A stretch of 64,000 nucleotides of DNA from Sipunculus nudus (Eukaryota; Annelida; Sipuncula; Golfingiida; Sipunculidae): the NCBI GenBank assembly GCA_026874595.1, contig CM049308.1, positions 24,330,367-24,394,366 on the forward strand, given 5' to 3'. The notes below the pieces were generated by a model. That model made no database searches and was not told where the DNA came from. It saw nothing but the letters and a program-made list of their open reading frames with translations. The stretch's first letter is position 1. Every line of letters starts with the position of its first letter. Position numbers and translations under genes: made by a program. This document shows positions 2,679 through 43,588 of this stretch, one piece after another.

Positions 2679-2682
2679 ATTT

Positions 2683-11829: not shown

Positions 11830-12918
11830 CTAATAAAATAAATAAACATAGAAATATTATTAAAATTAATGCGTACTGTTGAGACAGAAAATATAAAAAA
11901 AACTTAAACTTGAATAAATAAACAGCCAACCTTTACTCAAATATTAAATAAAAATGTCTATTACAATCAATTTTAGTTTTCATGTTTAAAATGTGCTACT
12001 TTCATGGTCATAATTTGTACTCGTCTTTTTACAACATTTATTTTCAATATTTCATATAAGTGAACGGATCGGATGAACATGTAAATAACCTCAACCCTTT
12101 GTTTTAACAGGCACTATTTCAAAAGGTTCACAACTGTCTCAGACATGACTAACTGCTGCTTATTATAAACTGTAATACTAAGCTTCGACGGGTGTCACCA
12201 ACGATAAAAGATCGCAAACGACCTGAACAATTAGAGTGTAGCCGATATGGAGTATGATCAGTATTTTTCTATATTTATCTGCAAGTAATCTTAACAAAAG
12301 TCGGCCATCAAAAGTATTTGATCTGAAAAAGTTACAGATGTAATTTACCTGCGTGGTAACACGGATACAATGACGAATCACACTTTTTGGTAAACTGGTT
12401 CCATCCTGTCCTTGGTGGACACATTCCTGTGAATTTGTTGTAACTGTAGGGAGACGGTGGCGCCACCACTCGGCGGGCTGTTACAGGAGGACGGAGAGTG
12501 GCTTGCTGGAGAACCGGACGACGGTAACAGACGTAGTATTGTGTACAGGTTGTCGGGTGAGCCATGTAACATCTGTTGTTAATGTAAGGGCTGCATCGAG
12601 CACAATCTGAAAAAAAACAGGTAAATCGGTAAAATCTCATTTCAATATATAGAAAATGGTCTTATATTTCTAAGACAATACAATTCGCAGAAAAAGTCAT
12701 ATGATTATTTATGAACGAGGCATTTTCACTCTTGAATCATATGATGCATTCTTATTTAATCTATTTGGCGTCCCGTTCTATCTGTCACTTCAAAATGAAG
12801 AAGCTTTTGGAAACTCTGATCTAAACAGCAATAATGTATATACCAGTTGTGGATCAGGATACGCACTGTGTATCAGGACACGCATATTTTCTGCATGTAC
12901 AACTTTTCAAAGATAATA

Positions 12919-12977
<59 letters not shown>

Positions 12978-18900: not shown

Positions 18901-20230
18901 CCCTTGCATGGAGAAATAAATCTACACCTGTCCCTTCTGCACTGTTCTCACGATATGTCCTGATCACCTTTCAAATAGGTTTGTTCTTTTGGCCCATGCC
19001 TATACTGGCTTTCTACACGTTAAGGCCACAGGCTATGGCCATTGCAGACTAGTAATCAAGGCGAACGAGATGTGATTTTTTACATGAATAGACAGGAATT
19101 AATGTTAGTGCCGCTATCAGAGTTTTTGTTTCCCCTAAACTCTCCAAGGTTTGTGTACACGCAAAGTTTCTTTTAGATACATAACAACCACTGAGGTATA
19201 TGTGTTCTCTGCCAAAAACTGAAGCATGGATTGACATAAAGCACAAACTGAAGGCAAGAGGTCAAAGCTAAATGATAAGACACTAGTTCACTGGTAAACC
19301 TTTGGAAATGCCAAGTTCGGGAGAGTTCAGGGCCATTTGAGTTCTCCTCAAACGAACGCCGGGGTGGCGGAGCTCGGCTGAAACTCCGTTTTGGCGGATC
19401 CAGTTACCCAGAGATATATCTTAAGGTATGGAGTGTCACACGTATTCAAGATTTGAATACGGGACATTCAATCGGAACCCCTTTGCAAATGACCGACCTA
19501 ATCTATTGGGGTATTACCAAGACATGCTCTTTGCAAACTCAAGGTCCCGAAGCCGAGCTCTATTTCTTTGGTATCTAGTGCCAACTATATAAATATAAAA
19601 AAATACCCTTTACTGATTAGGTGTATAGTGGTTGCTGTTACAACTAAATTTCTGTATAAAATATGGTACTTACTTGATGTACAAGGGTTGTTGTTGCAGC
19701 TCATTTCCTCTTTTTGTCCATTATAAATTCTAGTCCTCTTGCCACCACCACATTTTTTGTCACATTGGCTCCAAGGTGTAGTAACAGGTCGTAGACCCCT
19801 AGGAGGAGCCACCGGTCTGAGTCCTTCGGCATCTTCCGGGTTAACTTTAAAATGAATACAAATTTTCAAAGTTAATCTTAAAACTAATATCCTCACAGCA
19901 CGTTTCTTTGAAATATTGTGTTCGATTTGATAAAAGTATCTTGCATGTGTATTCTTAATGTGAATTAATAAATATATCTTTATCATTAATAATATCTTTA
20001 CAATATTTTACAAATCTTTCAATATCTTTGATTGTTTCCAAATATTTATATATTAATAATATTATGCTATTTTACAGTTTGTCTAATCCATTAAACCGAT
20101 GATACACAAATGTTATATACAGTATGTATATATCCATACCTCTCTCAAGTTCTCTCGCCGATTCTGGGGCCGCAAACCCGGTGGCGGCAACAAGCAGGAG
20201 TCTGAGCGCCACGACGTACAGTAGTGACAT
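11789..20230 (-). CDS. Secreted VWA/VWD/TSP1/chitin-binding matrix protein, copy A (11 exons)
   Basis: The spliced model predicts 760 residues. Coding exons on the minus strand, in order: 20230-20140, 19844-19674, 18578-18147, 17567-17436, 16887-16643, 15796-15498, 14843-14554, 14105-13956, 13237-13064, 12606-12349, 11829-11789. All have AG/GT borders, the exon lengths keep frame throughout (2283 nt), and the protein ends with TGA. Domains: signal peptide 1-20; partial TSP1 52-86; VWA 94-245 with a complete MIDAS (DTSGS at 101-105, later T and D); VWD about 285-450 ([11 protein letters not shown] ... GICGNYD); C8 about 470-545; two TSP1 repeats about 555-660; CBM14 peritrophin-type chitin-binding domain about 662-740. 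The protein is expected in extracellular, possibly shell-forming, matrix. The function is inferred from domains. Shell-matrix proteins with VWA plus chitin-binding domains are known, but I cannot name this one. Confidence 0.85.
12349..12606 (-). CDS. Matrix gene A exon 10 (CBM14 chitin-binding)
   Basis: Encodes [24 protein letters not shown] ... [16 protein letters not shown], the cysteine and aromatic pattern of a peritrophin-A/CBM14 chitin-binding domain. Phase 1 borders, donor GTAAAT. Confidence 0.85.
12921..12974. repeat. (TA)n microsatellite in intron 9 of copy A
   Basis: About 54 bp of TA dinucleotides. The equivalent position in copy B (about 56634-56702) has a longer run. Confidence 0.9.
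13064..13237 (-). CDS. Matrix gene A exon 9 (TSP1 repeat)
   Basis: Encodes [20 protein letters not shown], then R.R..C.NP.P..GG..C.G and two further Cys: a textbook TSP1 repeat with a C-mannosylation-type WxxWxxW motif. Flanked by phase-1 introns. Confidence 0.85.
13391..13801. mobile_element. 411-bp MITE with TTAA target duplication, copy A only
   Basis: Sits in intron 8. The ends are inverted repeats: TTAAAGGTCCCC at the left and GGGCCCCTTTAA at the right. The equivalent intron of copy B has a single TTAA (about 57124-57127) and none of the intervening sequence. This fits a non-autonomous DNA transposon with TTAA target preference (piggyBac-like); no transposase is encoded. Confidence 0.75.
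13956..14105 (-). CDS. Matrix gene A exon 8 (TSP1 repeat)
   Basis: Encodes [11 protein letters not shown] ... RTREC ... [11 protein letters not shown], a thrombospondin type-1 repeat with the WxxW motif. Flanked by phase-1 introns. Copy B has changed the cysteine of GTC to Phe. Confidence 0.83.
14554..14843 (-). CDS. Matrix gene A exon 7 (C8 domain)
   Basis: Encodes a cysteine-rich C8-type domain (C..L..R.GPFSAC ... [16 protein letters not shown] ... [11 protein letters not shown]) that usually follows VWD. Donor GTAAGT, phase 1 end. Confidence 0.85.
15498..15796 (-). CDS. Matrix gene A exon 6 (VWD, second half)
   Basis: Encodes [12 protein letters not shown]..., then [11 protein letters not shown] and [14 protein letters not shown], the calcium-binding end of a VWD domain. 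The donor is GTGAGT. Exon and flanking introns are almost identical to copy B (58913-59211). Confidence 0.85.
16643..16887 (-). CDS. Matrix gene A exon 5 (VWD, first half)
   Basis: Encodes a Ser-rich start, then [20 protein letters not shown], the N-terminal signature of a von Willebrand D domain. The exon ends on a codon boundary (phase 0) at donor GTACGA. Confidence 0.85.
17436..17567 (-). CDS. Matrix gene A exon 4 (end of VWA, linker)
   Basis: Joins phase-1 to phase-1. It encodes the final helix region of the VWA domain ([18 protein letters not shown] ... [10 protein letters not shown]). The donor is GTAAGT. Confidence 0.8.
18147..18578 (-). CDS. Matrix gene A exon 3 (VWA domain)
   Basis: Acceptor TCATCAG, donor GTAAGT. 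Encodes most of a von Willebrand A domain: [13 protein letters not shown], the MIDAS Thr in GGTNTAG and the MIDAS Asp in [10 protein letters not shown]. Phase 1 at both borders. Copy B has lost 2 bp in this exon. Confidence 0.88.
18600..19670. other. Intron 2 of matrix gene A
   Basis: No exon recognised. A locally GC-rich patch at about 19330-19390 interrupts the AT-rich intron, and copy B has the same patch at about 62790-62850. It may be an old repeat remnant. Confidence 0.4.
19674..19844 (-). CDS. Matrix gene A exon 2 (TSP1-like)
   Basis: Acceptor TTTAAAG, donor GTAAGT. Encodes a Pro-rich linker, then [17 protein letters not shown] ... C..NPC, a short thrombospondin type-1-like module. 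Both borders are phase 1. Confidence 0.8.
20140..20230 (-). CDS. Matrix gene A exon 1 (signal peptide)
   Basis: The ATG opens a hydrophobic signal peptide ([20 protein letters not shown]) with a likely cleavage site after FAA. The donor is GTATGG and the exon ends in phase 1. This reading, not the longer overlapping minus-strand frame, connects in frame to exon 2. Confidence 0.8.
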
Positions 20231-22329
20231 CTGGTGGTGAGGAAAAATGTGTTATCCCTTTAAAACCATAAATGTGTTTCTTTTGTTTATTGCTCGCCTT
20301 GTACATTAAGCATGTCACATGACCGACGACATTTAAAAAATGCACAAGTATAAACTGTAAATTAATACATAATCCACATGGGGATCAAGTTATATCTCTA
20401 ATACAGGGTCGCATGAAGAAAATAAATTGATACAAATGGATATACTTGTAAACATGTACTTATGTCTTTTATATGTCAAATTATCTTTTCTTCGGAGTAA
20501 ATTCTAAATAAACTGATTAAAAAATGGTTTCCGTAGGCTCTTTCTTAATTTTTTTGTTGCCTCAGCTTTCATGTATAATTTACAACCATTTTTTTCGTTT
20601 TCAGCATGGACGACATTTGTTGATGATTCACATGTACAAATATATCCATAGAAACATGTCTATATATATTGTAGGGAAATTGGTCGAAACCTTTGTATAT
20701 ACTACCAAAATTTACAAATATATATGCATATTCTCACATATTTACTTATACAAATATACTGCTTATACGTCTCAGCTTTCAATGTATAATTTACAGTATT
20801 TTGTTTGTTTTAATTATCGACGAAAATTGTTGAAGATTCACATGTACAAATATACCCATATTAATAAATATACATAAATATGCACACATGATAATATTAA
20901 CTATTGATTTCCGAAACCTATGCTAGCGGGGTAGTCTTACTTTTCGCATGCACACCAGAAAATCACACTCTGTCAGTTGTCATTCGACTGTATATTTTTG
21001 TCCATTACTTTTTCATCATTCAAAGCAAAATCTTGTACACTATAAGAAAATGGTACCTAAATATTAAACCTAGTCCTTTTCGCCGGAATCTTCTCCAATC
21101 AAATAAATGTATCGACTTAGATCTGTCTTAGTTCGCCATGAACAAGGTGGAAAAATTATCTCCAAAACACGCAGCAAAAAGTTTGAACAAGAAAAAAATA
21201 TGGATCTATACGAATGCTGTTTTAAAACTGATAAGATTATGTTACAACGAATAATTAATTGATTTTCCTGAGCTGAGTACGGGGTATAACAGGTCAATAT
21301 CTTTTTATCATAGATCAAGTTCTCGTTCGATTGTTTTGTTATAACTTTATTACATGTTCCATGACACAGGAACACCTACACTACGCAGTGTATGAAACGT
21401 TTTAAGCTGTTATTAATATGCTTTACAATATACATGATTCAATTATATATTTCAGAGATTTTATATCTGTATAAATGCATTTATATGAGCAAATGTATTT
21501 TAATATTACTGTGTTTTATACGTTTAGACACTGAAAACTGGCATCATCATTTCTTTTTCTCGATTCCAAAAGTAATACTGAAAAGTGTAGACGATTCCGT
21601 CAACAAAGCAATTAAACACAGCGCTTGAATAATCAATGATTACTTACTATTAATTTTCAGAGTCGCCTCGATCGCTCTTGTCTCTCTTCAGTATCTCGTG
21701 GCTGTCTCGCGACAAAACGTCTGTTGTGACGCCGATGAACCTGAGCATTTTTATACATAAGACGACAAACCCGGATGGTCCTTCTCGGCTGATGGGGAAA
21801 TTACGGGGAATCCCCTCTGTTGGCATGGAGCCTCGAGCTAATAGCACGTGACCGCTCAAGCGTTGCGATGGGAATAGAGACCACTGAAGCAGAACGGGCC
21901 CGGGGAGAGTGAGTACAACAACGTTAAGAACTTGACAAGGGGCGTACGTAAATACCTATATACAGGCGGGTCTTACATTAACAGAACAAAGATGAACGTA
22001 AATACCTCAATAAATGCGGATCTTACATTACCAGAAAAAAGACGGTTTACCTTTCATATCCGGGAGGTAAATCAAGCTTACTTAAAGGTAGTTTTAAAGT
22101 TTATATATTTTTAACTAAAGCGATAAATATATTTCTAGTGTACATTTTGTTACAAATATTTACGGTCCTCAACACCGAATCGTATATTGACGTTTGATGC
22201 CTTTAAATAGATTATGTCTATGTTTACCTTTGGCGATAAATGAATCCTATAAATGGACTGTTCTATTACGCTGAATATAATTTTAACAGGAAAAAAATGA
22301 AACTTGGATTTGAATAATTTATTTATGCA
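20231..22329. other. 5' flank of matrix gene A, intergenic
   Basis: No coding exon recognised. It should contain the promoter and 5' UTR of the minus-strand matrix gene just above 20230, but I cannot place a core promoter reliably. A less AT-rich patch lies at about 21660-21910. Confidence 0.5.
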
Positions 22330-22792: not shown

Positions 22793-23007
22793 ATAAAGAA
22801 AAAGAGTGACGCCTTTTAGATAGACTAACGTGTTTATTAATAAACAAGATTGTCTATCTGAAAGGCGTCATTCTGTGACGCCTTTTAGATAGACTAACGT
22901 GTTTATTAATAAACAAGTTCGTCTATCTGAAAGGCGTCACTCTGGCTCTTTACCTACACTTCGACTACAAACTAACACGGCTTTAATATATATATATATA
23001 TATATAT
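22330..23007 (+). repeat. Hairpin/(TA)n repeat, long copy at the outer-left edge of the palindrome
   Basis: A ~400-bp body (22330-22735) is followed by (TA)n(TG)n, two tandem near-palindromes (22806-22871 and 22875-22940, each starting GTGACGCC and ending GGCGTCA), the tail CTTTACCTACACTTCGACTA, and (TA)n. The body also occurs, reverse-complemented, in the palindrome spacer (about 34044-34440). The last (TA)n adjoins the left arm of the palindrome. Confidence 0.75.
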
Positions 23008-23544
23008 CACGAATCCGGTGCATCCATCACGAGTCACTTGTGTTATCTAGACTAAACATGATACTATGTATGATATCGGTTGACAGTTTTCAGATCTGCC
23101 ACTGCTTTAATAGTGCTTCCTGTTTGGATCGGTGACTCATCATAACTAAAACCTACGAACCCTGGGGTTCTAAGGGATATCCCCTCTAACTAAATACAGA
23201 CATATCTTCAAGTTCAGGGGTATCATATTGAGTTTGAGGTTAATGGGATGTTTAGAGTGTAAAAGGTGTTGAACCAGCAATGATGAAGAATATATAATAT
23301 AAACATTTGTCTATGTAAGTTGTAATATCATGCAGTAAATTTAAATTTGGAGTCAGGGCATACTTATAATATCAATTTTGAGGCACCTATTGAAATATTC
23401 TACAAGCAGACTCCTGATCGTAAGCACCTTGTTGTCATTAGTGAACTTTATTAAAATTGTCGACGATCGTGAACGTTTACCTACTCTTTCCAAAATGGAA
23501 ATACTTTTGTGGTACAATTGTCAAAATAACTGTTGATTTCATCC

Positions 23545-23710
23545 TGAACCGCCCATACACTAGTTGTTGCGTTAGACTGTTGATGGCACTTCACCCGCCC
23601 ATACACTGGTTGCTATGTGAACTTGATGGCTCTTTACCCGCCTATACACTAGTTGCTACGTTAAACTGTTGTTGGCACCTAACCCTAACACGCCTATGAA
23701 CTGGTTGCAT
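23545..23710. repeat. ~46-bp tandem repeat (3-4 units), mirrored at 42785-42960
   Basis: Three units contain CGCCCATACACTAGTTG or a close variant, spaced about 45 bp apart. The mirrored copy in the right arm is similar. No coding role seen. Confidence 0.7.
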
Positions 23711-25123
23711 GCCCTCGACTCGTGACGTTACATTTATATGTTTCAGAGATAGACCAAAGGAGACCTTTTGACAGAATCTTGTTGTAAATTTGCTTAAACT
23801 AGTCATTGTTGCTTTAATTATAAAAATCCTTTTATTATTAAAAATCTTTTACTTTCTTCAAGTAAACTTTTTCCTTCATCCATCAATATTTCATCTCATG
23901 ATACACCTTGAAGTTATTTGTCTAGACTTTGCCGAAGTTTACCAGGGTAATGAACCACTTGAAGGGTTTATTTTGAAACAAAATCAAAGATGAACTACCC
24001 TCACTGTGACGGTCTTTTCTCTAAGTAGGAGTATTCTATGTTTAATGTTCACTTTATGTAACAAGCTAGCTGACGGAGGGGATATGGCTGAAAGTCAGTT
24101 ATTTCTAAAGAAGAACGCGAATACATTCCCCTACCCACAGTTGAAGTGCTCCAGACTAATCGGCGAGGTGGCTGGTAACTTTGGTTGAAAAACTGCTATT
24201 GCACAATCGGTTTCTTTTAGACTAACTCGTGGAAATCTGTGTTAACTGAATTTGTCAGGCCGAGATTAACACCAGGTATTCTCAGACAGGTAAGGTCTAG
24301 AAGTTGGGAATGAATAACACAATTGTTAGTAAGTGAAGAAGAAAAATTCAATGCCACTGATACAAAAACGTGAATGTGGTCATTTTGGTACTTTTGAATA
24401 GAGACAGGAAACAGAGTTGGAATAATCTGTAAGCGAAAAACGTTTAATCGTACAGTATTGCTCCATATGTTATAAGGTTCATTTATATGAGTTCCATGAA
24501 ATATTCTAAACGTCAAAATTGACATTTCATGTAACTTTTACTCAAAGGCACTGGCACTTGACAGACATCGCAGCAATATAAACTTAAGAAACATGTTGTC
24601 AATATCCACCTTATAACGAATTTTACATATTTGCAGTTATTATTTAAAAGTTTTAGCATAGTCCTTTCGTCTATTTACCATTTCGATCTGTGCAGCCACT
24701 TCATTGAGCACATGATTCTTTAAACAACAATACATCTTAGTTTGGACTTTAAAAAGCAGCTGCCAAAGCGACAAATTATACCAAAGCTGGTCTTTTTTTA
24801 CGGGCACACACTTTACAGCCCATGGAGCTAGTTGATATACCAGGCACTGTATTTAAAGTATTCTGGCCATTATTAAAAATATCTGTAAGAAAACAGGTTA
24901 AACTTGCAGGATTTATGTTAATAGGCTATAATACATATATAAATGTATCATTTATAGGAACAGTCATTGTGCAAAGGTGGTAGCTGTAGAACTCACTCAC
25001 GTACACGACATATTTACAGAGAATATAATATACTATTGTATGCATTCATTTTTGTATATCTATACCTTCTATATAGAATCTGGAATGATACATACATAAG
25101 ACGATGATTGAATATGTGTCATT
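23711..25123. other. 3' flank of the left-arm receptor gene
   Basis: No gene recognised. Short open frames here (for example 24217-24525 minus) are cut or frame-shifted in the mirror copy at 41962-42189 and are probably not genes. Confidence 0.5.
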
Positions 25124-26830
25124 TCAATACGTGTTATTTAATAAAGGAGTGTTTTCGTCAGGTTGTGCCGCAACAGACACATCCCTTCTTGTCCTCTTCC
25201 CTTGCTTTTCAAACTCAGGGGTATCCGTTTCATCCTGTTTATAGGAAGGTAGGTGGTACAGCAGTTTCTCAATGAAACAGGACTTGCCTGGCGAAAGAAA
25301 GATACCCGCGTTCAGGTAGGCGTCGAGCGACTTGTTTCTTGTTTTCTCTCTTCTACAGGACTTGTCAAGAAGTATGATAATGCGGAATCCTGGGATAGCT
25401 TCCTCATAATCCTCAACCTGCTGAAACAATTGTTGGAGTGACGGAGACTTCAAAAACTCTTGGCTGATCACAAACACTGCGCGGGAACATTCCTTCATTG
25501 CAATATAACAGTCTTCTTGCAATGATGCCCCCAAAATTCCATCCCTTACATTTGCAAGAACTGATAAACCATAATCCTCTTCAAGGACGGGCAGTAAAGT
25601 TTCAACCACGAAACCGTCAGCATCTTCGCCTTCTGACACAATATAGGCAGCGTAACGTCGGCGCTTCTCAAAACGTCTACCAATAGTACAGCCGAATCGT
25701 ACATATGCCACTGCTAGCATTTCTCTGCGGAAATACACAACCAGTCCAGCAAAGAGATTGAGGAAGGCTGCGACCAAGGATGATACAATTATTCCAATCA
25801 ATGGCAGCTTTTTGTCTTTTATGCACGTTGGTGCAGTCCTTTTCCATTTTCCAGATAACAAACATTTGATCTCTGCAGCTCCGACCAATCTGTAACTTTC
25901 CTTACATTTATATAATACAGAATAATGATTGTAATTATAATGTACAATTGTTGCGTGCGCATGCGTGACATTTGGCGGTTCTCCACAGTCAGGCGCTTTG
26001 TACCAGCATTTCCTGCTATGTCGCAGTGAAGGTAACAATGGACATAATCCGTCAGCAAAGGGCACTCCCCCAACTGTTGTCAACATAGTATGGCATGCTG
26101 TCACGAGGTCTTCACATGCCTCACGGCAAATGATAGTGTTATTATCCCCCGGGCAGTTTGGGTATTTTACCCGACATAAGATTTCTGCTATATGCGGGTA
26201 ACATGTGATTCTGTCGGCCGCCTTAACAATAATATTCACCGACAAGTCACTCAAAAATAATATTAATTGTTGAGTAGTTTCATTGTCTTTTAAATATCTT
26301 TTCGCCACACCTTTATTTGTACAAGGAAAAGTAGGTGAAGGCGCCGTGCATGTATATTTAAGAGGCATAAGATCCATGTCATATTTTATCGTAAGATGAA
26401 TTCCCATGGCGCAACCGTCAAATCCAATATATGTGCGAGATCGAATTTTAAAGTATGGTGGGACTAAATGGGAAGAGCAGGTACACGTTTTGCCCTCTGT
26501 GTAAGAGCAATCCATTAGAAAGTACGTTCGACCGATAACACGTTTAAACGTTGCATTTTCCTTAAGCTCTTCACATGTCACCGGGGGTAATTTGTGACTT
26601 GGTTCGGACAGGAAAAAATGGACCTTCAAAGAGCCACATTCAGAAGATCTTCCCAATGATACGTTAGCTTTAAATTCAAATCGTATTTCTGTCCAGGTTC
26701 TGTTGATCACAAACCCTGACCAACCGTGTTTCGCATAAACCGTTCCAATCAGCCGCTTACTATTAGCGAATGTAAATTGAAGAAGGATGAAACTGAACAT
26801 ATATATGATAATAACAGATCTTCCTGCCAT
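25124..26830 (-). CDS. Frizzled-CRD/sushi/TIR transmembrane receptor, left-arm copy
   Basis: Single-exon frame of 568 residues. The start ATG lies in a good context (AACCATGG) and opens a signal peptide (1-23). Residues 24-160 are an unassigned ectodomain with six Cys and several N-glycosylation sequons. Residues 161-275 hold exactly ten Cys in the Frizzled-CRD order, including CREACEDLVTAC (235-246). Residues 281-336 are a sushi/CCP module (CGEPPNVTH ... GKWKRTAPTC). Residues 343-367 are a transmembrane helix, followed by a basic stop-transfer. Residues 392-530 are a TIR domain (YAAYIVSEGEDADGF; RDGILGASLQED in the BB-loop region; CSRAVFVISQEFLKS). The tail ends in ENTPLL, an acidic di-leucine sorting-type motif. 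Predicted role: surface or endosomal receptor signalling through TIR; ligand unknown. Transcribed away from the palindrome centre. Confidence 0.9.
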   Translation of the reverse strand: MAGRSVIIIYMFSFILLQFTFANSKRLIGTVYAKHGWSGFVINRTWTEIRFEFKANVSLGRSSECGSLKVHFFLSEPSHKLPPVTCEELKENATFKRVIGRTYFLMDCSYTEGKTCTCSSHLVPPYFKIRSRTYIGFDGCAMGIHLTIKYDMDLMPLKYTCTAPSPTFPCTNKGVAKRYLKDNETTQQLILFLSDLSVNIIVKAADRITCYPHIAEILCRVKYPNCPGDNNTIICREACEDLVTACHTMLTTVGGVPFADGLCPLLPSLRHSRKCWYKAPDCGEPPNVTHAHATIVHYNYNHYSVLYKCKESYRLVGAAEIKCLLSGKWKRTAPTCIKDKKLPLIGIIVSSLVAAFLNLFAGLVVYFRREMLAVAYVRFGCTIGRRFEKRRRYAAYIVSEGEDADGFVVETLLPVLEEDYGLSVLANVRDGILGASLQEDCYIAMKECSRAVFVISQEFLKSPSLQQLFQQVEDYEEAIPGFRIIILLDKSCRREKTRNKSLDAYLNAGIFLSPGKSCFIEKLLYHLPSYKQDETDTPEFEKQGKRTRRDVSVAAQPDENTPLLNNTY

Positions 26831-28140
26831 GGTTAACTTATTTGTACGAATTATCCCAAATTATATCTGATTATTATATCCGGACATAGATGCTAAGGAC
26901 TGCCAAAAACATTCTCTTTGGTTTATCTTTGATATTACACCGGTTCACAAAATAGTGTAAGTCTGTCATCATTCTCTATCCAAATGTCACATGTGTGGAT
27001 TCGTATCCATTGTACTTACTCTTTTTATTTCTTATTTGTTTCTTATTCAAAATGTTGTTCACATGTAAATCCCCCATCGTCTTCTAGGTTAAATCCTTCA
27101 GTTACAAATGACGAGGAAGCGTTATATTTAATGCTGCACATAATATTGTTGTTTTTCCTCATGCCAGATTATCTTCCATCAGGTATCCGGTTTATTTAAG
27201 ATTGTAACAGCCTCACGCTGGCTTGTACATCCTTATACCCTTTTATCATCTAGTCAGCTGTGTCAGCATGCTCTTAATGCCGCATTGTTTCCCCTAGGCT
27301 TATCCTTTTCTTTTATCACTTCTGATTGATGGACACTTAAACAATGCCATAGTCTAGTTTGCCTGGAAATAGTTTATCTTATTACCACCAGAGTTGTGCC
27401 AAAACTAAAAAGCTCTCAGGTGAAGGATAGGTGGTTGAATTTTTTTTAATGCAGTCCTGGGATTTATTACATACATGATAAAATTTACTTACACGTACGT
27501 GTAGACGCCATGGCTCCTTCAGCGTAAACAGGTATTCTAAGTCTAGTTGGGCATAGCTTATGTTGAAGTGTTTATATTACACATTATTTTAGATTTTATA
27601 ATTTATTCTTAATATCTTATATGCCCACACTATTTGCATGCAATGTCCTTAGATTTATCATGGCTTCGGACTTTGGATTAGAATTTCCATTGCTCAAAAC
27701 TCGTAAGGTCACTTGCGACTCACTTTAACATACAATAGGGACCCCACATGGCGGAGGTTTGTACTATTTAGCATGCAGTTGGACAGTTTAACCAATGACG
27801 CAAAATTTGTGTCACCACTTGCAATCATATTTGGAAGGACATATAAAATTGATTATTATTCCATTGAAAACGCTCAAGGCGCCTTGGATGTTAATGGTAC
27901 ATATTTATTTGCAATAAAATGTGTACCATCTCACAATTTTATATCATTTTTGCTGTTTGCAAAAGTTTCCCAACAAAGCTATAATGGGTTTCTAATAAAT
28001 CCGGTTTTACCGATTTTATACGGTTTATTGTTTGTATGTGTGTCTAAAACAGTCCATGTGTTTCTGTTTACCAAACCAAGACTACGTGACAAGATGTCCG
28101 ATCTAGCACTAGCGCGATAATTCACAAACAAAAAATAATT
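26831..28140. other. 5' flank of the left-arm receptor gene
   Basis: Non-coding by eye. It mirrors about 38350-39653. An open frame at 27713-28120 (+) is shortened in the mirror copy (38374-38670) and matches no family I know. Another at 26984-27199 (+) is conserved at 39282-39527 (-) but is probably 5' flank. Confidence 0.45.
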
Positions 28141-28144
28141 TTGT

Positions 28145-28150
28145 TCTGTA

Positions 28151-28214
<64 letters not shown>

Positions 28215-28307
28215 TAGAAGGTTAAGATAAAGAGTGACGGCTGTCTAAAAAGGGTCACTCTTTTTCTTTACCTTCACTGCAATTACAGACTAACACTGCT
28301 GTACAAC

Positions 28308-28348
<41 letters not shown>

Positions 28349-28355
28349 AATAATA

Positions 28356-28408
<53 letters not shown>

Positions 28409-28410
28409 GC
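28145..28410. repeat. (TA)n, diverged hairpin repeat, (TTA)n, (TA)n cluster
   Basis: (TA)n at about 28152-28212. A short hairpin 28232-28260 (GAGTGACGG ... GGGTCACTC) carries a diverged tail (CTTTACCTTCACTGCAATTA). (TTA)n follows at about 28308-28356, then (TA)n to 28406. Mirrored at about 38090-38325. Confidence 0.8.
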
Positions 28411-28639
28411 GCATTTCGGTCATTGTATCAGTCCAGTCATTTCTGTGTTGTTAACTGAAAGACGACGTAGGATGGACGATGGACGGACGACACACCATGG
28501 CAAAAGCTCCCATCTACCAATACCAAAATACACTTATACACTAAATACATTTATATCAGAGTAAGCCTTTATATTGTAATATCTCCCACCCTCACAGGGT
28601 GACATGTTGTTTTCAGTGCAGTCGTCTGTTGTTGTTGTC

Positions 28640-29370
28640 GTCTGTAGGATATCTTGTGAACGCGAAAACTTTTGAAGGGCTGCTTATTTTCATCAAAAAT
28701 TTAAAACAATGATGGTTCCCACCAAAATCTCGGACGAGAAACAATACCCGGTGACCATAACCTTCACTTTTAAGGTCAAATCTGCCAACAATTTAATTTT
28801 TTGTAGGATATTTTGTGATCGCGATAAAATTTCAAGGGCTGCATATTTTCCTCAAAAATATGACACTAATGGTTCCTACCAAATCCTCGGACAAGGAACA
28901 ATACCCGGTGACATAGACCTTCATCTTTTAGGGAAAATCTGCCGAAATGTAAAACTTTTTGGGTTATATTTAACAGCTGCCTATTTTCCGCCGAATATGA
29001 CACACTAATGAATCCTACTGAAATCTCCCAATATTTCTAAACCCAGTGATCTTGACCTTCATCTTCATGGCCGAATCTGCCGAAATGAAAAGTTATTGTG
29101 AAGCTCCATAACTTTTGAAGTATTTCACATTTTATCCTCTAATTTGGTACACCGATTGTTCCTTCAAAGTTCGCGAAGGAGTGCAAAAGATGCTGACCTT
29201 CACCATTATCTTCAAGGTCAAATCAGCCAAATTATGGTTATTGTCTTGTGAACGCGATAACTTTTGAAGGATTGGATATTTTCCTCCCAAATGTGAAACA
29301 CTGATTGTTCCTACAAAAATCGTGGATGTGCTTGAAAACTGGTGACCTTGACAGGGTCAGATCTCTTTCC
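28640..29370. repeat. Diverged tandem repeat, ~150-bp units (4-5 units)
   Basis: Recurrent landmarks are TTGTGAACGCGAAAACTTTT, CAGCTGCC/GGGCTGC plus TATTTTCC, a block containing CGGTGACC, and TTCATCTTxxxGGxCxAATCTGCC. Mirrored at about 37130-37860. Short open frames in it (28709-29008 and mirror) are repeat-derived. Confidence 0.7.
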
Positions 29371-29415
29371 GTGTCTTCATTGATATAACCTATATGCAGA
29401 CGGGGGCGAAGCGGA

Positions 29416-29437
29416 GGGGGGGGGGGGGGTAGGGGGG
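29416..29437 (+). repeat. Poly-G tract next to a short inverted repeat
   Basis: G14, TA, G6, followed at 29442-29464 by TTTTTTTGCACGTGCG and an A-run (a small near-palindrome). The mirror is at 37063-37082, where the C-run is 20 long, so the tract differs between arms. Confidence 0.8.
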
Positions 29438-29464
29438 CATCTTTTTTTGCACGTGCGAAAAAAA

Positions 29465-30507
29465 GCCATTCTAGTTCTAGGTTTGTAACTTAAAACATTG
29501 TCGATTATATTAGGTAAGTAATAAATGGTTGGGAAAGATATTCCTCCGACTATGACAGGTGCTCAAATCTTTAGATATCACCAATAAATTACTTTTTAAA
29601 ACAAGTGCAAATTTAGTGAAGACTGTATTCGGCGAGGTAACAAAGCAACCTTACCGAGGTTACTAACGGCCGAAATTTTCCCACAGCATTCAGTAGGATC
29701 CCGTCAATTCAATATGTTTTTGCAGATTTAAAGACAAAGATCGAGGAATCCTATTTACCCTCATCAAACATGACAAGTGCGATTCTAGTTTTAGCTACAT
29801 TTATTGTTGACAAATGGCTGATAGTTCATTTTCAGTTTGCCCGATGGGTTTAAAAGCACCACCACGAAAATAAAGCCGATGAGAATGTCATAGTAAAGGA
29901 CAAGCGTGCGAGTTTTCATTTCATTGATAATATTATAATGCGAGAAAGAATACCGCCGGCATCTTAATTGTCTTTATGTTTTTTTTTTCAGTGAGGCCAC
30001 AATGTTTTAAAATTATATTCACTGATGATTTGTTGACATAGGAGGGGACATATCGTATTTGTAATGAGTCTTAATTGTCGTCTCAAAATTACTATTCAAC
30101 GTGACATACACAGAGATCAAAGTAATAGCCATAAACGTTAGGACCTTTAACTTAAGACCTTATTATGTGTTTACCATTTATATGCATCGGTATCAGCCAC
30201 ACATCCCGAGTGGGCCAAATATCAGCCCTGTGCTGCATGGCACGTCAAACGCAAGAATATACAGACAATCAATATACTAATTTTTTTAGTAATTTTTCAG
30301 ATTGATTTGCTGAAAAGAAAACTGGCACCGCCTCTATGTGGCAAAACAAAGAAAGGTGCACTTGGCGCCTAGAATCTGAATGCTGGCAGGTTTCTTACTC
30401 GGGTAACTTTTACATAGACAAATTCTTTTCAAATGATCCCTCCGAAACTGTTATATTTTAAAGTAAAACTGAACAAAAGTCAGCGAAATGCTTCAACTAC
30501 GGTGCAT
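29465..30507. other. Arm sequence, no gene recognised
   Basis: Mirrors about 35975-37020. No coding exon, RNA gene or transposon signature that I can identify. Confidence 0.45.
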
Positions 30508-30559
30508 TACTGTTAGACGATTGGATCATAACAATGAAGTTGTGTGAACATTTCTAGGC

Positions 30560-30605
30560 TAGGATATATATAAATATATATATATAAACATATATTATTG
30601 TTAGC

Positions 30606-30668
<63 letters not shown>

Positions 30669-30827
30669 CGATAAATGGTATAGTCGTATTAGCTTGTAGT
30701 CCAAGTGTAGGTAAAGAGTAAGGATGACGCCTTTTAGATTAACTTGTTTATTATCACACGGTTTTTCGAAGCGTACAGGCTTATTCGTCAGTTCATGTGG
30801 TAATTAGGAACTCCCAGGCGTTACTCT

Positions 30828-30835
<8 letters not shown>
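30560..30835 (-). repeat. (TA)n plus expanded hairpin repeat copy
   Basis: Contains (TA)n (about 30608-30667), then the family tail in minus orientation (GTAGTCCAAGTGTAGGTAAA) and the left hairpin arm (GATGACGCCTTTTAGATTAA). The centre is different and longer, including CGAAGCGTACAGGCTTATTC. It ends in GGCGTTACTC. Mirrored at about 35686-35850. Confidence 0.75.
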
Positions 30836-30839
<4 letters not shown>

Positions 30840-30884
<45 letters not shown>

Positions 30885-35643: not shown

Positions 35644-35687
<44 letters not shown>

Positions 35688-35844
35688 AGTAACGCCTGGG
35701 CGTTCCTAATTACCACATGAACTGACGAATAAGCCTGTACGCTTCGAAAAACCGTGTGATAATGAACAAGTTAATCTAAAAGGCGTCATCCTTACTCTTT
35801 ACCTACACTTGGACTACAAGCTAATACGACTATACCATTTATCG

Positions 35845-35883
<39 letters not shown>

Positions 35884-35945
35884 GCTAACAATAATATATG
35901 TTTATATATATATATATATTTATATATATCCTAGCCTAGAAATGT
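35640..35945 (+). repeat. (TA)n and expanded hairpin repeat, right arm
   Basis: Mirror of 30560-30835. Holds AAGAGTAACGCC, a different centre with ACTGACGAATAAGCCTGTAC, then GGCGTCATCC, the tail CTTTACCTACACTTGGACTA and (TA)n. Confidence 0.75.
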
Positions 35946-37129
35946 TCACACAACTTCATTGTTATGATCCAATCGTCTAACAGTAATGCACCGTAGTTGA
36001 AGCATTTCGCTGACTTTTGTTCAGTTTTACTTTAAAATATAACAGTTTCGGAGGGATCATTTGAAAAGAATTTGTCTATGTAAAAGTTACCCGAGTAAGA
36101 AACCTGCCAGCATTCAGCTTCTAGGCGCCAAGGGCACCTTTCTTTGTTTTGTCACATAGAGGCGGTGCCAGTTTTCTTTTCAGCAAATCAATCTGAAAAA
36201 TTACTAAAAAAATTAGTATATTGATTGTCTGTATATTCTTGCGTTTGACGTGCCATGCAGCACAGGGCTGATATTTGGCCCACTCGGGATGTGTGGCTGA
36301 TACCGATGCATATAAATGGTAAACACATAATAAGGTCTTAAGTTAAAGGTCCTAACGTTTATGGCTATTACTTTGATCTCTGTGTATGTCACGTTGAATA
36401 GTAATTTTGAGACGACAATTAAGACTCATTACAAATACGATATGTCCCCTCCTATGTCAACAAATCATCAGTGAATATAAATTTAAAACATTGTGGCCTC
36501 ACTGAAAAAAACACATAAAGACAATTAAGATGCCGGCGGTATTCTTTCCCGCATTATAATATTATCAATGAAATGAAAACTCGCACGCTTGTCCTTTACT
36601 ATGACATTCTCATCGGCTTTATTTTCGTGGTGGTGCTTTTAAACCCATCGGGCAAACTGAAAATGAACTATCAGCCATTTGTCAACAATAAATGTAGCTA
36701 AAACTAGAATCGCATTTGTCATGTTTGATGAGGGTAAATAGGATTCCTCGATCTTTGTCTTTAAATCTGCAAAAACATATTGAATTGACGGGATCCTACT
36801 GAATGCTGTGGGGAAATTTCGGCCGTTAGTAACCTCGGTAAGGTTGCTTTGTTACCTCGCCGAATACAGTCTTCACTAAATTTGCACTTGTTTTAAAAAG
36901 TAATTTATTGGTGATATCTAAAGATTTGAGCACCTGTCATAGTCGGAGGAATATCTTTCCCAACCATTTATTACTTACCTAATATAATCGACAATGTTTT
37001 AAGTTACAAACCTAGAACTAGAATGGCTTTTTTTCGCACGTGCAAAAAAAGATGCCCCCCTACCCCCCCCCCCCCCCCCCCCTCCGCTTCGCCCCCGTCT
37101 GCATATAGGTTATATCAATGAAGACACGG

Positions 37130-37860
37130 AAAGAGATCTGACCCTGTCAAGGTCACCAGTTTTCAAGCACATCCACGATTTTTGTAGGAACAATCAGTGT
37201 TTCACATTTGGGAGGAAAATATCCAATCCTTCAAAAGTTATCGCGTTCACAAGACAATAACCATAATTTGGCTGATTTGACCTTGAAGATAATGGTGAAG
37301 GTCACCATCTTTTGCACTCCTTCGCGAACTTTGAAGGAACAATCGGTGTACCAAATTAGAGGATAAAATGTGAAATACTTCAAAAGTTATGGAGCTTCAC
37401 AATAACTTTTCATTTCGGCAGATTCGGCCATGAAGATGAAGGTCAAGATCACTGGGTTTAGAAATTTTGGGAGATATCAGTAGGATTCATTAGTGTGTCA
37501 TATTCGGCGGAAAATAGGCAGCTGTTAAATATAACCCAAAAAGTTTTACATTTCGGCAGATTTTCCCTAAAAGATGAAGGTCTATGTCACCGGGTATTGT
37601 TCCTTGTCCGAGGATTTGGTAGGAACCATTAGTGTCATATTTTTTGAGGAAAATATGCAGCCCTTGAAATTTTATCGCGATCACAAAATATCCTACAAAA
37701 AATTAAATTGTTGGCAGATATGACCTTAAAAGTGAAGGTTTTGGTCACCGGGTTTTGTTTCTCGTCCGAGATTTTGGTGGGAACCATCATTGTTTTAAAT
37801 TTTTGATGAAAATAAGCAGCCCTTCAAAAGTTTTCGCGTTCACAAGATATCCTACAGACG
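37130..37860. repeat. Mirror copy of the ~150-bp diverged tandem repeat
   Basis: Reverse-complement counterpart of 28640-29370 with scattered differences. Confidence 0.7.
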
Positions 37861-38089
37861 ACAACAACAACAGACGACTGCACTGAAAACAACATGTCAC
37901 CCTGTGAGGGTGGGAGATATTACAATATAAAGGCTTACTCTGATATAAATGTATTTAGTGTATAAGTGTATTTTGGTATTGGTAGATGGGAGCTTTTGCC
38001 ATGGTGTGTCGTCCGTCCGTCGTCTATCCTACGTCGTCTTTCAGTTAACAACACAGAAATGACTGGACTGATACAATGACCGAAATGCG

Positions 38090-38152
<63 letters not shown>

Positions 38153-38275
38153 TATTATTAATAATAATAATAATAATAATAAGTTTTACAGCAGTGTTAG
38201 TCTGTAATTGGAGTGAAGGTAAAGAAAAAGAGTGACGCTTTTTAGACAGCCGTCACTCTTTATCTTAACCTTCTA

Positions 38276-38325
<50 letters not shown>
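38090..38325 (-). repeat. (TA)n, (TAA)n and short hairpin repeat, right arm
   Basis: Mirror of 28145-28410. Short hairpin at about 38230-38258 (GAGTGACGC ... GTCACTC) between (TA)n runs. Confidence 0.8.
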
Positions 38326-38329
<4 letters not shown>

Positions 38330-39653
38330 TACAGAACAAAATTATTTTTTGTTTGTGAATTATCGCGCTAGTGCTAGATCGGACATCTTGTCACGCAGTC
38401 TTGGTTTGGTAAACAGAAACAAATGGACTGTTTATACACACATACAAACATTAAACCGTATAAAATCGGTGAAACCGGATTTATTAGAAACTCATTATAG
38501 CTTTGTTGGGAAACTTTTGCCAACAGCAAAAATGATATAAAATTGTGAGATGGTACACATTTTATTGCAAATAAATATGTACCATTTACATCTAAGGCGC
38601 CTTGAGCGTTTTCAATGGAATAATAATCAATTTTATGTGTCCTTCCAAATATGATTGCAAGTGGTGACAAAATTTTGCGTCATTGGTTAAACTCTCCAAC
38701 TGCATGCTCAATAGTACAAACCTCCGCCATGTGGGGTCCCTATTGTATGTTAAAGTGAGTCGCAAGTGACCTTACGAGGTCAAGTAACAATGGAAATTCT
38801 AATCCAAATTCCGAAGCAATAATAAATCTAAGGACATTGCATGCAAATAGTGTGGGCATATAAGATATTAAGAATAAATTATAAAATCTAAAATAATGTG
38901 TAATATAAACACTTCAACATAAGATATGCCCAACAAGATTTAGAATACCTGTTTACGCTGAAGGAGCCATGGCGTCTACATGTACGTATAAGTAAATTTT
39001 ATCATGTATGTAATCAATCCCAGGACTGCATTAAAAAAAATTCAACCACCTATCCTTCACATGAGAGCTTTGTAGTTTTGGCACAACCCTGGTGGTAATA
39101 AGATAAACTATTTCCAAGCAAACTAAACTATGGCATTGTTTGAGTGTCCATCAATCAGAAATGATAAAAGAAAAGGATAAGCCCAGGGGAAACAGTGCGG
39201 CATTAAGAGCATGCTCACACAGCTGACTAGATGATAAAAAGGGTATAAGGATGTACAAGCCAGCGTGAGGCTGTTACAATCTTAAATAAACCGGATACCT
39301 GATGGAAGATAATCTGGCATGAGGAAAAACAACATTATTATGTGCAGCATTAAATATAACGCTTCCTCGTCATTTGTAACTGAAGGATTTGACCTAGAAG
39401 ACGATGGAGGATTTACATGTGAACAACATTTTGAATAAGAAACAAATAAGAAATAAAAAGAGTAAGTATAATTGGATACGAATCCACACATGTGACATTT
39501 GGATAGAGAATGATGACAGACTTTCACTATTTTGTGAAACCGTGTAATATCAAAGAAAACCCAAGGGAGAAGGTTTTTTAGCAGTCCTTATCATCGATGT
39601 TCGGATATAATAATCAAATATAACTTGGGATAATTCGTACAAATAAGTTAACC

Positions 39654-41360
39654 ATGGCAGGAAGATCTGTTATTATCATATATGTGTTCAGTTTCATCCT
39701 TCTTCAATTTACATTCGCTAATAGTGAGCGGCTGATTGGAACGGTTTATGCGAAACACGGTTGGTCAGGGTTTGTGATCAACAGAACCTGGACAGAAATA
39801 CGATTTGAATTTAAAGCTAACGTATCATTGGGAAGATCTTCTGAATGTGGCTCTTTAAAGGTCCATTTTTTCCTGTCCGAACCAAGTCACAAGTTACCCC
39901 CGGTGACATGTGAAGAGCTTAAGGAAAATGCAACGTTTAAACGTGTTATCGGTCGAACGTACTTTCTAATGGATTGCTCTTACACAGAGGGCAAAACGTG
40001 TACCTGCTCTTCCCATTTAGTCGCACCATACTTTCAAATTCGATCTCGCACATATATTGGATTTGACGGTTGCGCCATGGGAATTCATCTTACGATAAAA
40101 TATGACATGGATCTTATGCCTCTTAAATATACATGCACGGCGCCTTCACCTACTTTTCCTTGTACAAATAAAGGTGTGGCGAAAAGATATTTAAAAGACA
40201 ATGAAACTACTCAACAATTAATATTATTTTTGAGTGACTTGTCGGTGAATATTATTGTTAAGGCGGCCGACAGAATCACATGTTACCCGCATATAGCAGA
40301 AATCTTATGTCGGGTAAAATACCCAAACTGCCCGGGGGATAATAACACTATCATTTGCCGTGAGGCATGTGAAGACCTCGTGACAGCATGCCATACTATG
40401 TTGACAACAGTTGGGGGAGTGCCCTTTGCTGACGGATTATGTCCATTGTTACCCTCACTGCGACACGGCAGGAAATGCTGGTACAAAGCGCCGGACTGTG
40501 GAGAACCGCCAAATGTCACGCATGCGCAGGCAACAATTGTACATTATAATTACAATCATTATTCTGTATTATATAAATGTAAGGAAAGTTACAGATTGGT
40601 CGGAGCTGCAGAGATCAAATGTTTGTTATCTGGAAAATGGAAAAGGACTGCACCAACGTGCATAAAAGACAAAAAGCTGCCATTGATTGGAATAATTGTA
40701 TCATCCTTGATCGCAGCCTTCCTCAATCTCTTTGCTGGACTGGTTGTGTATTTCCGCAGAGAAATGCTAGCAGTGGCATATGTACGATTCGGCTGTACTA
40801 TTGGTAGACGTTTTGAGAAGCGCCGACGTTACGCTGCCTATATTGTGTCAGAAGGCGAAGATGCTGACGGTTTCGTGGTTGAAACTTTACTGCCCGTCCT
40901 TGAAGAGGATTATGGTTTATCAGTTCTTGCGAATGTAAGGGATGGAATTTTGGGGGCATCATTGCAAGAAGACTGTTATATTGCAATGAAGGAATGTTCC
41001 CGCGCAGTGTTTGTGATCAGCCAAGAGTTTTTGAAGTCTCCGTCACTCCAACAATTGTTTCAGCAGGTTGAGGATTATGAGGAAGCTATCCCAGGATTCC
41101 GCATTATCATACTTCTTGACAAGTCCTGTAGAAGAGAGAAAACAAGAAACAAGTCGCTCGACGCCTACCTGAACGCGGGTATCTTTCTTTCGCCAGACAA
41201 GTCCTGTTTCATTGAGAAACTGCTGTACCACCTACCTTCCTATAAACAGGATGAAACGGATACCCCTGAGTTTGAAAAGCAAGGGAAGAGGACAAGAAGG
41301 GATGTGTCTGTTGCGGCACAACCTGACGAAAACACCCCTTTATTAAATAAAACGTATTGA
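39654..41360 (+). CDS. Frizzled-CRD/sushi/TIR transmembrane receptor, right-arm copy
   Basis: Single-exon 568-residue frame, same length and domain order as the left-arm gene: signal peptide, six-Cys ectodomain, ten-Cys Frizzled CRD, sushi, transmembrane helix, TIR, ENTPLL tail. Nine residues differ (positions 11 M/V, 25 K/E, 124 P/A, 128 K/Q, 272 S/G, 292 H/Q, 353 V/I, 515 G/D, 566 N/K; left/right). No Cys and no TIR core motif is changed, so both copies look functional. The start codon has the same AACCATGG context. Transcribed outward, towards the satellite block. Confidence 0.9.
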   Translation: MAGRSVIIIYVFSFILLQFTFANSERLIGTVYAKHGWSGFVINRTWTEIRFEFKANVSLGRSSECGSLKVHFFLSEPSHKLPPVTCEELKENATFKRVIGRTYFLMDCSYTEGKTCTCSSHLVAPYFQIRSRTYIGFDGCAMGIHLTIKYDMDLMPLKYTCTAPSPTFPCTNKGVAKRYLKDNETTQQLILFLSDLSVNIIVKAADRITCYPHIAEILCRVKYPNCPGDNNTIICREACEDLVTACHTMLTTVGGVPFADGLCPLLPSLRHGRKCWYKAPDCGEPPNVTHAQATIVHYNYNHYSVLYKCKESYRLVGAAEIKCLLSGKWKRTAPTCIKDKKLPLIGIIVSSLIAAFLNLFAGLVVYFRREMLAVAYVRFGCTIGRRFEKRRRYAAYIVSEGEDADGFVVETLLPVLEEDYGLSVLANVRDGILGASLQEDCYIAMKECSRAVFVISQEFLKSPSLQQLFQQVEDYEEAIPGFRIIILLDKSCRREKTRNKSLDAYLNAGIFLSPDKSCFIEKLLYHLPSYKQDETDTPEFEKQGKRTRRDVSVAAQPDENTPLLNKTY

Positions 41361-42784
41361 AATGACACATATTCAATCATCGTCTTATGTATGTATCATT
41401 CCAGATTCTATATAGAAGGTATAGATATACAAAATGAATGCATACAATAGTATATTATATTCTCTGTAAATATGTCGTGTACGTGAGTAAGTGAGTTCTA
41501 CAGATACCACCTTTGCACAATGACTGTTCCTATAAATGATACATTTATATATGTATTATAGCCTATTAACATAAATCCTGCAAGTTTAACCTGTGTTCTT
41601 ACAGATATTTTTAAAAATGGCCAGAGTACTTTAAATACATTGCCTGGTATATCAACTAGCTCCATGGGCTGTTAAGTGTGTGCCCGTAAAAAAAGACCAG
41701 CTTTGGTATAATTTGTCGCTTTGGCAGCTGCTTTTTAAAGTCCAAACTAAGATGTATTGTTGTTTAAAGAATCATGTGCCCAATGAAGTGGCTGCACAGA
41801 TCGAAATGGTAAATAGACGAAAGGACTATGCTAAAACTTTTAAATAATAACTGCAAATATGTAAAATTCGTTATAAGGTGGATATTGACAACATGTTTAT
41901 GAAGTTTATATTGCTGCGATGTCTGTCAAGTGCCAGTGCCTTTGAGTAAAAGTTACATAAAATGTCAATTTTGACGTTTAGAATATTTCATGGAACTCAT
42001 ATCAATGAACCTTATAACATATGGAGCAATACTGTACGATTAAACGTTTTTCGCTTACAGATTATTCCAACTCTGTTTCCTGTCTCTATTCAAAAGTACC
42101 AAAATGACCACATTCACGTTTCTGTATCAGTGGCATTGAATTTTCTTCTTCACTTACTAACAATTGTGTTATTCATTCCCAACTTCTAGACCTTACCTGT
42201 CTCAGAGTACCTGGTGTTAATCTCGGGCTGACAAATTCGGTTAACACAGATTTCCACGAGTTAGTCCAAAAGAAACCGATTGTGCAATAGCAGTTTCTCA
42301 ACCAAAGTTACCAGCCACCTCGCCGATTAGTTTGGAGCACTTCAACTGTGGGTAGGGGAATGTATTCGCGTTCTTCTTTAGAAATAACTGACTTTCAGCG
42401 ATATCCCCTCCGTCAGCTAGCTTGTTACATAAAGTGAACATTAAACATAGAATGTTCCTACTTAGAGAAAAGACCGTCACAGTGAGGGTAGTTCATCTTT
42501 GATTTTGTTTCAAAATAAACCCTTCAAGCGGTTCATTACCCTGGTCAACTTCGGCAAAGTCTAGACAAATAACTTCAAGGTGTATCATGAGATGAAATAT
42601 TGATGGATGAAGGAAAAAGTTTACTTGAAGAAAGTAAAAGATTTTTAATAATAAAAGGATTTTTATATTTAAAGCAACAATGACTAGTTTAAGCAAATTT
42701 ACAACAGGATTCTGTCAAAAGGTCTCCTTTGGTCTATCGCTGAAACATATAAATGTAACGTCACGAGTCGAGGGCATGCAACCA
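41361..42784. other. 3' flank of the right-arm receptor gene
   Basis: Mirror of about 23711-25123. No gene recognised. Confidence 0.45.
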
Positions 42785-42960
42785 GTTCATAGGCGTGTTA
42801 GGGTTAGGTGCCAACAGCAGTTTAACGTAGCAACTAGTGTATAGGCGGGTAAAGAGCCATCAAGTTCACATAACAACCAGTGTATGGGCGGGTGAAGTGC
42901 CATCAACAGTCTAACGCAACAACTAGTGTATGGGCGGTTCAGGATGAAATCAACAGTCTC
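42785..42960. repeat. Mirror copy of the ~46-bp tandem repeat
   Basis: Reverse-complement counterpart of 23545-23710. Confidence 0.65.
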
Positions 42961-43588
42961 GGGAATTCTAACGTGTTTTGAAGGGCCAGGTGCCATCTGC
43001 TAAATACCGCAAACTGCTAAAGTGCAGGCGTAGTCATGTTTTCACTGAACTATACGTAAGTTATTTTGACAACTGTACCATAAACGTATTTCCATTTTTT
43101 AAAGAGTAGTTAAACGTTCACAATCGTCGACAATTTTAATAAAGTTCACTAATGACAAAAACGTGCTTACGATCAGGAGTCTGCTTGTAGAAAATTTCAA
43201 TAGGTGCCTCAAAATTTATATTATAAGTATGACCTGACTCCTAATTCAAATTTGCTGCATGATATTACAACTTACATAGACAAATGTTTATATTATATAT
43301 TCTTCACCATTGCTGGTTCAACACCTTTTACACTCTAAACATCCCATTAACCTCAAACTCAATATGATACCCCTGAACTTGAAGATATGTCTGTATTTAG
43401 TTAGAGGGGATATCCCTTAGAACCCCAGGGTTCGTAGGTTTTAGTTATGATGAGTCACCGATCCAAACAGGAAGCACTATTAAAGAAGTGGCAGATCTGA
43501 TAACTGTCAACCGATATCATACATAGTATCATGTTTAGTCTAGATAACACAAGTGAATCGTGATGGATGAACCGGATTCGCGACGGAA

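Follow-up and report, generated by a model that had tools for sequence, protein, structure and literature searches.

The window, by which we mean the whole 64,000-nucleotide stretch of Sipunculus nudus DNA that was analysed, almost certainly encodes an intronless type I single-pass receptor. Its predicted protein reads as a signal peptide, an N-terminal stretch, a Frizzled-type (Fz) cysteine-rich domain (CRD), a sushi module, a transmembrane (TM) helix and a cytoplasmic TIR domain. The receptor is a member of a family and not an oddity, because the same genome carries dozens of relatives; these belong to class A, which includes the window gene, or to class B. Taken as a whole, the explanation that we moderately favour is that the gene specifies a recognition receptor of an expanded family, with class A acting as a non-enzymatic TIR partner. 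The features of the gene and its surroundings are collected in Table 1.

Table 1. Features of the receptor gene, its second copy and the repeat that bears them (positions are those of the window).
Feature	Position	Strand	Basis or remark
Receptor copy 1, single intronless coding frame, 568 aa	25124..26830	-	ORF reading
Signal peptide, residues 1-23	26762..26830	-	hydrophobic stretch 1-19; cleavage point by eye
N-terminal stretch, residues 24-158, six Cys	26357..26761	-	class A alignment
Frizzled-type cysteine-rich domain, residues 161-275, ten Cys	26006..26350	-	Pfam Fz and Cys pattern
Sushi/CCP module, residues 282-336	25823..25987	-	Pfam Sushi E 4e-9, over cut-off
Transmembrane helix, residues 341-367	25730..25810	-	hydrophobicity
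TIR domain (class A), residues 386-531	25238..25675	-	profiles, alignment; box 2 VRDGILG, no Trp/Glu at the WCxxE positions
Acidic dileucine ENTPLL, residues 559-564, candidate endosomal sorting signal	25139..25156	-	motif
Inverted repeat, left arm, bears copy 1	23007..30866	.	96-97% identity between arms
Inverted repeat, right arm, bears copy 2	35647..43583	.	96-97% identity between arms
Receptor copy 2, 568 aa	39654..41360	+	16 nt and 9 aa differences from copy 1

The start codon of copy 1 lies in the context AACCATGG, and the protein, searched against its own genome, matched at 100% identity at G000:C3:24355493-24357196. ATG frames reached at most 218 aa in 50 mononucleotide shuffles of the window, compared to 568 aa in the real sequence, so the frame is not due to chance. 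The preliminary description had its coordinates and length right, and the coding strand is the minus strand. It had also stated that the gene lacks introns, and CRD, sushi module, TM helix and TIR domain do all lie in one frame. The possibility it had raised that the TIR domain belongs to a separate exon or gene is ruled out by this continuous frame, which the TIR domain shares with the CRD.

The two receptor copies lie in an inverted repeat of approximately 7.9 kb per arm and differ by 0.0069 nonsynonymous and 0.017 synonymous differences per site. Divergence between the arms was 0.94% in the coding sequence vs. 2.1% in noncoding sequence. This lower coding divergence points to constraint on the protein, although the signal is only suggestive because divergence is uneven along the repeat (0.6-4.2% per 500-base block). 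There is also a third copy (90% identity) 5-7 kb beyond the left edge of the window; a further copy just to the right was looked for, and none was there among the matches listed.

The rest of the window is rich in other repeats. A 9.5 kb block is present as a direct repeat approximately 43.5 kb apart (11012-20546 and 54572-63995, 90-95% identity). Its left copy, the one scanned, showed C8, VWA and TSP1 matches; the VWA stretch of the right copy (61602-62072) departs from that of the left copy once past its start. Each copy of this block has large arrays of 34- to 80-base repeats on its left (589-5485 and 44407-53679), and these arrays show a strong strand skew. At 6422-9152 there are frames that match DUF1759, aspartyl protease and integrase H2C2 and resemble a BEL/Pao-type retroelement; none of the scanned frames was recognised as a reverse transcriptase.

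The domains of the receptor follow one another in the order given in Table 1, where the limits of the TIR domain are approximate. The ten cysteines of the CRD are spaced by gaps of 8-39-8-6-8-3-6-16-11. They fit a loose Frizzled spacing pattern, which was matched by 0 of 100000 shuffles of residues 156-280. On the full protein, Pfam Fz matched residues 206-260 below its cut-off (E 7.6e-6, 26.9 bits), while the CRD scanned alone scored 32.9 bits against a cut-off of 32.1 (E 1.1e-7), with the RECK Fz profile second. In a genome-wide scan with the Fz profile, the window CRD reached 32.6 bits. Five shuffles that kept all cysteines fixed gave 13.3-17.8 bits to Fz in four cases and no match in the fifth, so a match due to mere cysteine bias was rejected. 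A ten-cysteine Frizzled CRD had been proposed in the preliminary description. The spacing pattern, the Fz score of the domain alone and the higher-scoring relatives described below bear this out, and the profile search that it had named as able to contradict the assignment of residues 161-275 did not do so.

Similarity of the CRD to known structures was weak: Frizzled-6 was the nearest PDB entry to the window CRD (E 0.19), and the class A CRD profile found, among CRD proteins, only ROR2 (E 0.5). AlphaFold2, run without an alignment on residues 24-340, gave a mean pLDDT of 36. The CRDs of class A and class B aligned with each other at E 1.7e-11 (hhalign), but only over columns 51-122 of 122, the first part being unaligned. 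In Frizzled CRDs, the third and eighth cysteines (C3 and C8) form a disulphide. All ten cysteines were kept in 25 of the 31 aligned members; C3 and C8 were jointly absent in the other 6 and singly absent in none. This paired absence fits the Frizzled fold, because a C3-C8 disulphide predicts joint loss. It may reflect a single event, since the six members group together on a single branch of the TIR tree (82/92). The other eight CRD cysteines and the four sushi cysteines were invariant in the 31 aligned members, and the sushi Trp was likewise present in 31/31.

The earlier calls of a sushi module, a signal peptide and a TM helix also held: the first has its own Pfam match (Table 1) and the other two coincide with the only hydrophobic stretches of the protein, residues 1-19 and 341-367. 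A hydrophobic stretch between sushi and TIR was present in 31/31 aligned members. Pfam AbrB matches overlie the membrane helix and are probably no more than hydrophobic-stretch matches, and an NCBIfam search returned nothing except such a match.

The N-terminal stretch, which the preliminary description did not list, is probably a further domain, judging by six cysteines that are conserved in 20 aligned class A members. It had no PDB match by sequence at E ≤ 10. The class A and class B stretches aligned at E 2.4e-4 with a probability of 43% in a profile comparison. A faint TMEM145_N match was detected in the N-terminal stretch of 4 of the 7 intact class B proteins scanned (best E 2.1e-5, all below cut-off); two class A members that were scanned and the truncated class B protein L049 gave no such match. 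This likeness of the class B stretches is weak and may serve as a lead only.

The TIR domain of the window copy is divergent. TIR_2 matched residues 408-492 of the full protein at E 6e-5, below the Pfam cut-off, and scored 27.4 bits against a cut-off of 28 when the domain was scanned alone (E 5.2e-6), again just below; two shuffles of the domain matched no Pfam family. The TIR region alone found the IL-18RAP TIR as its best PDB match (E 0.0011). The class A TIR profile matched the TLR15/TLR2 TIR at E 5.2e-7 over positions 4-144 of 146, and the class A and class B TIR profiles matched each other at E 1.3e-6 (hhalign). The TIR assignment made earlier is thus upheld by a near full-length profile match to a Toll receptor TIR and by the class B domains, which score over cut-off.

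We take the box 2 BB-loop consensus of TIR domains to be RDxxPG and the catalytic Glu of TIR NADases to lie at the WCxxE position. By this standard, the two classes differ at three sites. The BB-loop Pro is replaced by Leu or Ile in 25/25 class A members and is present in 6/6 aligned class B members; the Trp of WCxxE is replaced in 25/25 and present in 6/6; and the Glu is replaced by Leu, Ile or Val in 25/25 and present in 6/6. In the remaining two intact class B genes, these sites read RDFxPG and WCTEEF. The class A TIR is therefore probably a non-enzyme, as judged by these residues. [DE]xxPLL tails, which resemble an acidic dileucine sorting motif, were present in 12/25 class A members.

A tree of TIR domains (25 class A rows, 9 class B rows including one fragment, and 12 Toll-type rows) placed each class in one group (100/100 and 100/99). 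Class B fell among the Toll-type genes, class A was set apart by a long branch, and the two were not united. Forcing them into one clade carried a cost of 5 log units, with a p-AU of 0.078 on all rows and of 0.049 when three long rows were left out. The split between the classes possibly reflects either fast divergence or replacement of one TIR domain by another (a swap).

The genome of S. nudus (1.43 Gb, 153 contigs) was the one genome searched in depth. The window protein gave at least 78 matches in it and a class B relative at least 81. Intact single-frame genes, taken from frames of the fetched loci plus the two window copies, numbered at least 33 (25 class A and 8 class B, 531-601 aa), with damaged ones besides, and were arranged in 18 clusters (gaps under 500 kb) on 9 contigs. 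The other intact class A frames were 26-98% identical to the window copy and the class B frames 15-18%. Stops were present in 35 of the 78 match rows listed, where several rows can be one gene; the rows of L040, L041 and L043 show stops, yet their frames proved intact. Single-protein scans of collections of viral contigs and genome contigs confirmed no relative.

The Fz profile scan of the genome gave 57 matches, and 19 of these fell within one of the 33 intact frames (11 of class A and 8 of class B); the remaining 14 class A frames were missed by it. On score alone, its top rows are probably ordinary Fz-domain genes. Of the 31 aligned members, the number with a Pfam match at E ≤ 0.01 was 31 for Sushi, 25 for Fz, 17 for TIR and 12 for TIR_2. 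Among the class B proteins scanned in full (7 of 8), TIR was over cut-off in 7/7 (best 1.8e-14) and Fz in 6/7 (best 6e-12, up to 46.5 bits), the Fz match of L048 being under cut-off. Scanned singly, class A members L014 and L011 reached TIR_2 at E 0.03-0.12 only and L024 reached Fz at E 0.39 only. The weak Fz and TIR matches of the window copy are supported because relatives score higher (Fz 6e-12, TIR 2e-14).

Two further observations concern incomplete relatives. L037:498-1826 (minus strand, G000:C2:23603800-23606800) has an Fz match, no TIR and a short tail, with sushi-like cysteines and a membrane helix recognised by eye; it is possibly a decoy form. At G000:C9:17945124-17992572, three near-identical partial copies approximately 23.3 kb apart were found among the matches listed, all containing pieces of CRD and TIR, with the TIR piece interrupted by a stop.

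Mean pairwise identity within class A (300 pairs) was 51% in the TIR domain, which is the best-conserved domain, 43% in the TM helix and linker, 41% in the sushi module, 36% in the CRD and 29% in the N-terminal stretch. The dN/dS ratio was below 1 in 42 of 44 domain values from 11 hand-chosen pairs, of which two share P0001 and two share L026; these are simple counts with no test for positive selection. Median values differed little between domains (TIR 0.36, N-terminal stretch 0.38, sushi 0.42, CRD 0.45), while pair by pair the CRD exceeded the TIR in 10/11 and the N-terminal stretch exceeded it in 7/11. By these counts, the receptor protein is shown to be under constraint.

A ligand-binding receptor with TIR-mediated output is a highly probable reading of this architecture. 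CRDs elsewhere bind lipids or lipid-modified proteins, and sushi modules bind proteins or glycans. The ectodomain would bind a ligand, and dimerisation or clustering of receptors would bring the TIR domains together. Class B has a canonical TIR and would, like Toll receptors, recruit adaptors of the MyD88 type. Class A, including the window gene, would pair with other TIR domains and tune or redirect them as a co-receptor or modulator, the candidate partners being class B, Toll receptors or adaptors; about half of class A is perhaps sent to endosomes through the acidic dileucine tail. The role of non-enzymatic TIR partner is the most likely one for class A because Pro, Glu and Trp are absent while the TIR is its best-conserved domain; whether it is specifically a modulator or altered-adaptor receptor we regard as evenly balanced. 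Of the earlier proposal that the protein couples CRD-type recognition to TIR signalling, the architecture stands and is strengthened by the profiles, the relatives and the C3/C8 pair. The signalling, which we infer, is weakened for the window copy because the three residues (BB-loop Pro, Trp and Glu) are missing from all 25 class A members.

The same residues allow a different account, in which class A would be a decoy or inhibitory receptor that shares the ligands or TIR partners of class B or Toll receptors and passes no signal, as SIGIRR-like receptors do. This is possible, though doubtful. The loss of all three residues throughout a class whose TIR is nevertheless best conserved would suit it, and the TIR-less L037 suggests that signal-less forms exist, but loss of one BB-loop Pro alone need not abolish signalling: TLR3 lacks this Pro and signals through TRIF.

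An immune rather than a developmental role is fairly probable. The recent duplication, the many broken copies and the more variable ectodomain speak for innate recognition rather than development. A developmental receptor, that is, a Wnt or lipid co-receptor using its TIR for intracellular assembly, is unlikely, even though the CRD is of Frizzled type and Toll itself has a developmental role; 33 intact clustered genes, stops in 35 of 78 listed rows and a recent inverted duplication have the look of a lineage-expanded recognition family and not of a conserved gene for patterning.

A receptor whose TIR acts as an NADase and so sets off cell death or a nucleotide signal is very improbable. Class B keeps the Glu of WCxxE, and the Toll-type frames of the same genome, read by eye, seem to keep it too, but in all 25 class A members this position is Leu, Ile or Val, and we reject this mechanism for the window copy on that ground. 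Least probable of all is a functionless retrocopy or an assembly artefact such as one allele assembled twice, for although the gene has no introns, its two 99% copies sit in an inverted repeat and many listed family rows carry stops, this reading has against it the 25 intact class A frames with their spread of identities and the more distant class B, the dN/dS values, the lower coding divergence of the repeat (uneven as the noncoding part is) and the third copy at 90%.

If the recognition reading is extended, the family may form an unrecognised arm of innate immunity. N-domain/CRD/sushi receptors would read lipid-bearing ligands through a competent and an altered TIR class, perhaps after a TIR swap; we hold this extension to be tentative and rather unlikely in its full form. 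The ligands would then be microbial lipoproteins or Wnt-like self proteins, and the altered-TIR class would tune or redirect the competent one. The two TIR classes in one genome offer a natural test of which residues serve signalling and which serve assembly only.

TIR domains joined to unusual domains are a recurrent theme in animals (PMC6321704, PMC9334734, PMC2575513, PMC5094078). In the passages covered of these and related papers, they include Ig-TIR proteins in sponges (PMC8242945, PMC7308585, PMC6208332), EGF and armadillo domains with TIR in Aplysia (PMC9334734), TIR-laminin and other combinations in amphioxus (PMC2575513), novel TIR_2 genes in anemones (PMC5094078) and ecTIR-DC proteins (PMC6321704, PMC6836662, PMC5549309). 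Kinase-TIR proteins are described in choanoflagellates (PMC6040629). The invertebrate ecTIR-DC, EGF-TIR, Ig-TIR and TIR-laminin proteins thus share with the window receptor a TIR with unusual partners, but none combines it with Fz and sushi as far as these excerpts extend. The survey of Gerdol 2017 is reportedly the main one of bivalve TIR proteins and the one that defines the ecTIR-DC families. In the literature searched, where that survey was covered through citing papers only, no description of Fz and TIR in one receptor was found, and we provisionally regard the Fz, sushi and TIR architecture as new.

With Frizzled, ROR, RECK and other Fz-type CRD proteins, the window protein has the ten-cysteine CRD in common. 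Frizzled has seven TM helices, whereas the window protein, which is not a Frizzled, has one hydrophobic stretch after its signal peptide, no kinase match and a cytoplasmic TIR domain. The kin of TMEM145 are GOST proteins such as Wntless and GPR107/108. The likeness to TMEM145 is confined to the class B N-terminal stretch at sub-cut-off scores, whereas the window family has a single TM helix and a TIR.

TIR receptors are mainly known with LRR or Ig ectodomains, and here an Fz CRD and a sushi module precede the TIR. Toll-like receptors are likewise single-pass proteins with a cytoplasmic TIR, and class B stands among the Toll-type TIR domains in the tree; they differ in having an LRR ectodomain in place of the N-terminal stretch, Fz CRD and sushi module, and the class A TIR lacks the Pro, Trp and Glu. 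The LRR-TIR genes L052, L053, L057, L059 and L060 of the same genome are long single frames (702-1160 aa) like the Fz-TIR family, so intronlessness is not special to the latter. The IL-1 receptor family and SIGIRR (Ig-TM-TIR) share the single-pass TIR layout, but the window protein has no Ig: neither LRR nor Ig was among the six Pfam families matched at E ≤ 10 on it. In this family, a ligand-binding fold of developmental proteins is combined with the signalling machinery of immunity, and the window receptor, though neither a Toll nor an IL-1 receptor, may work like those two.
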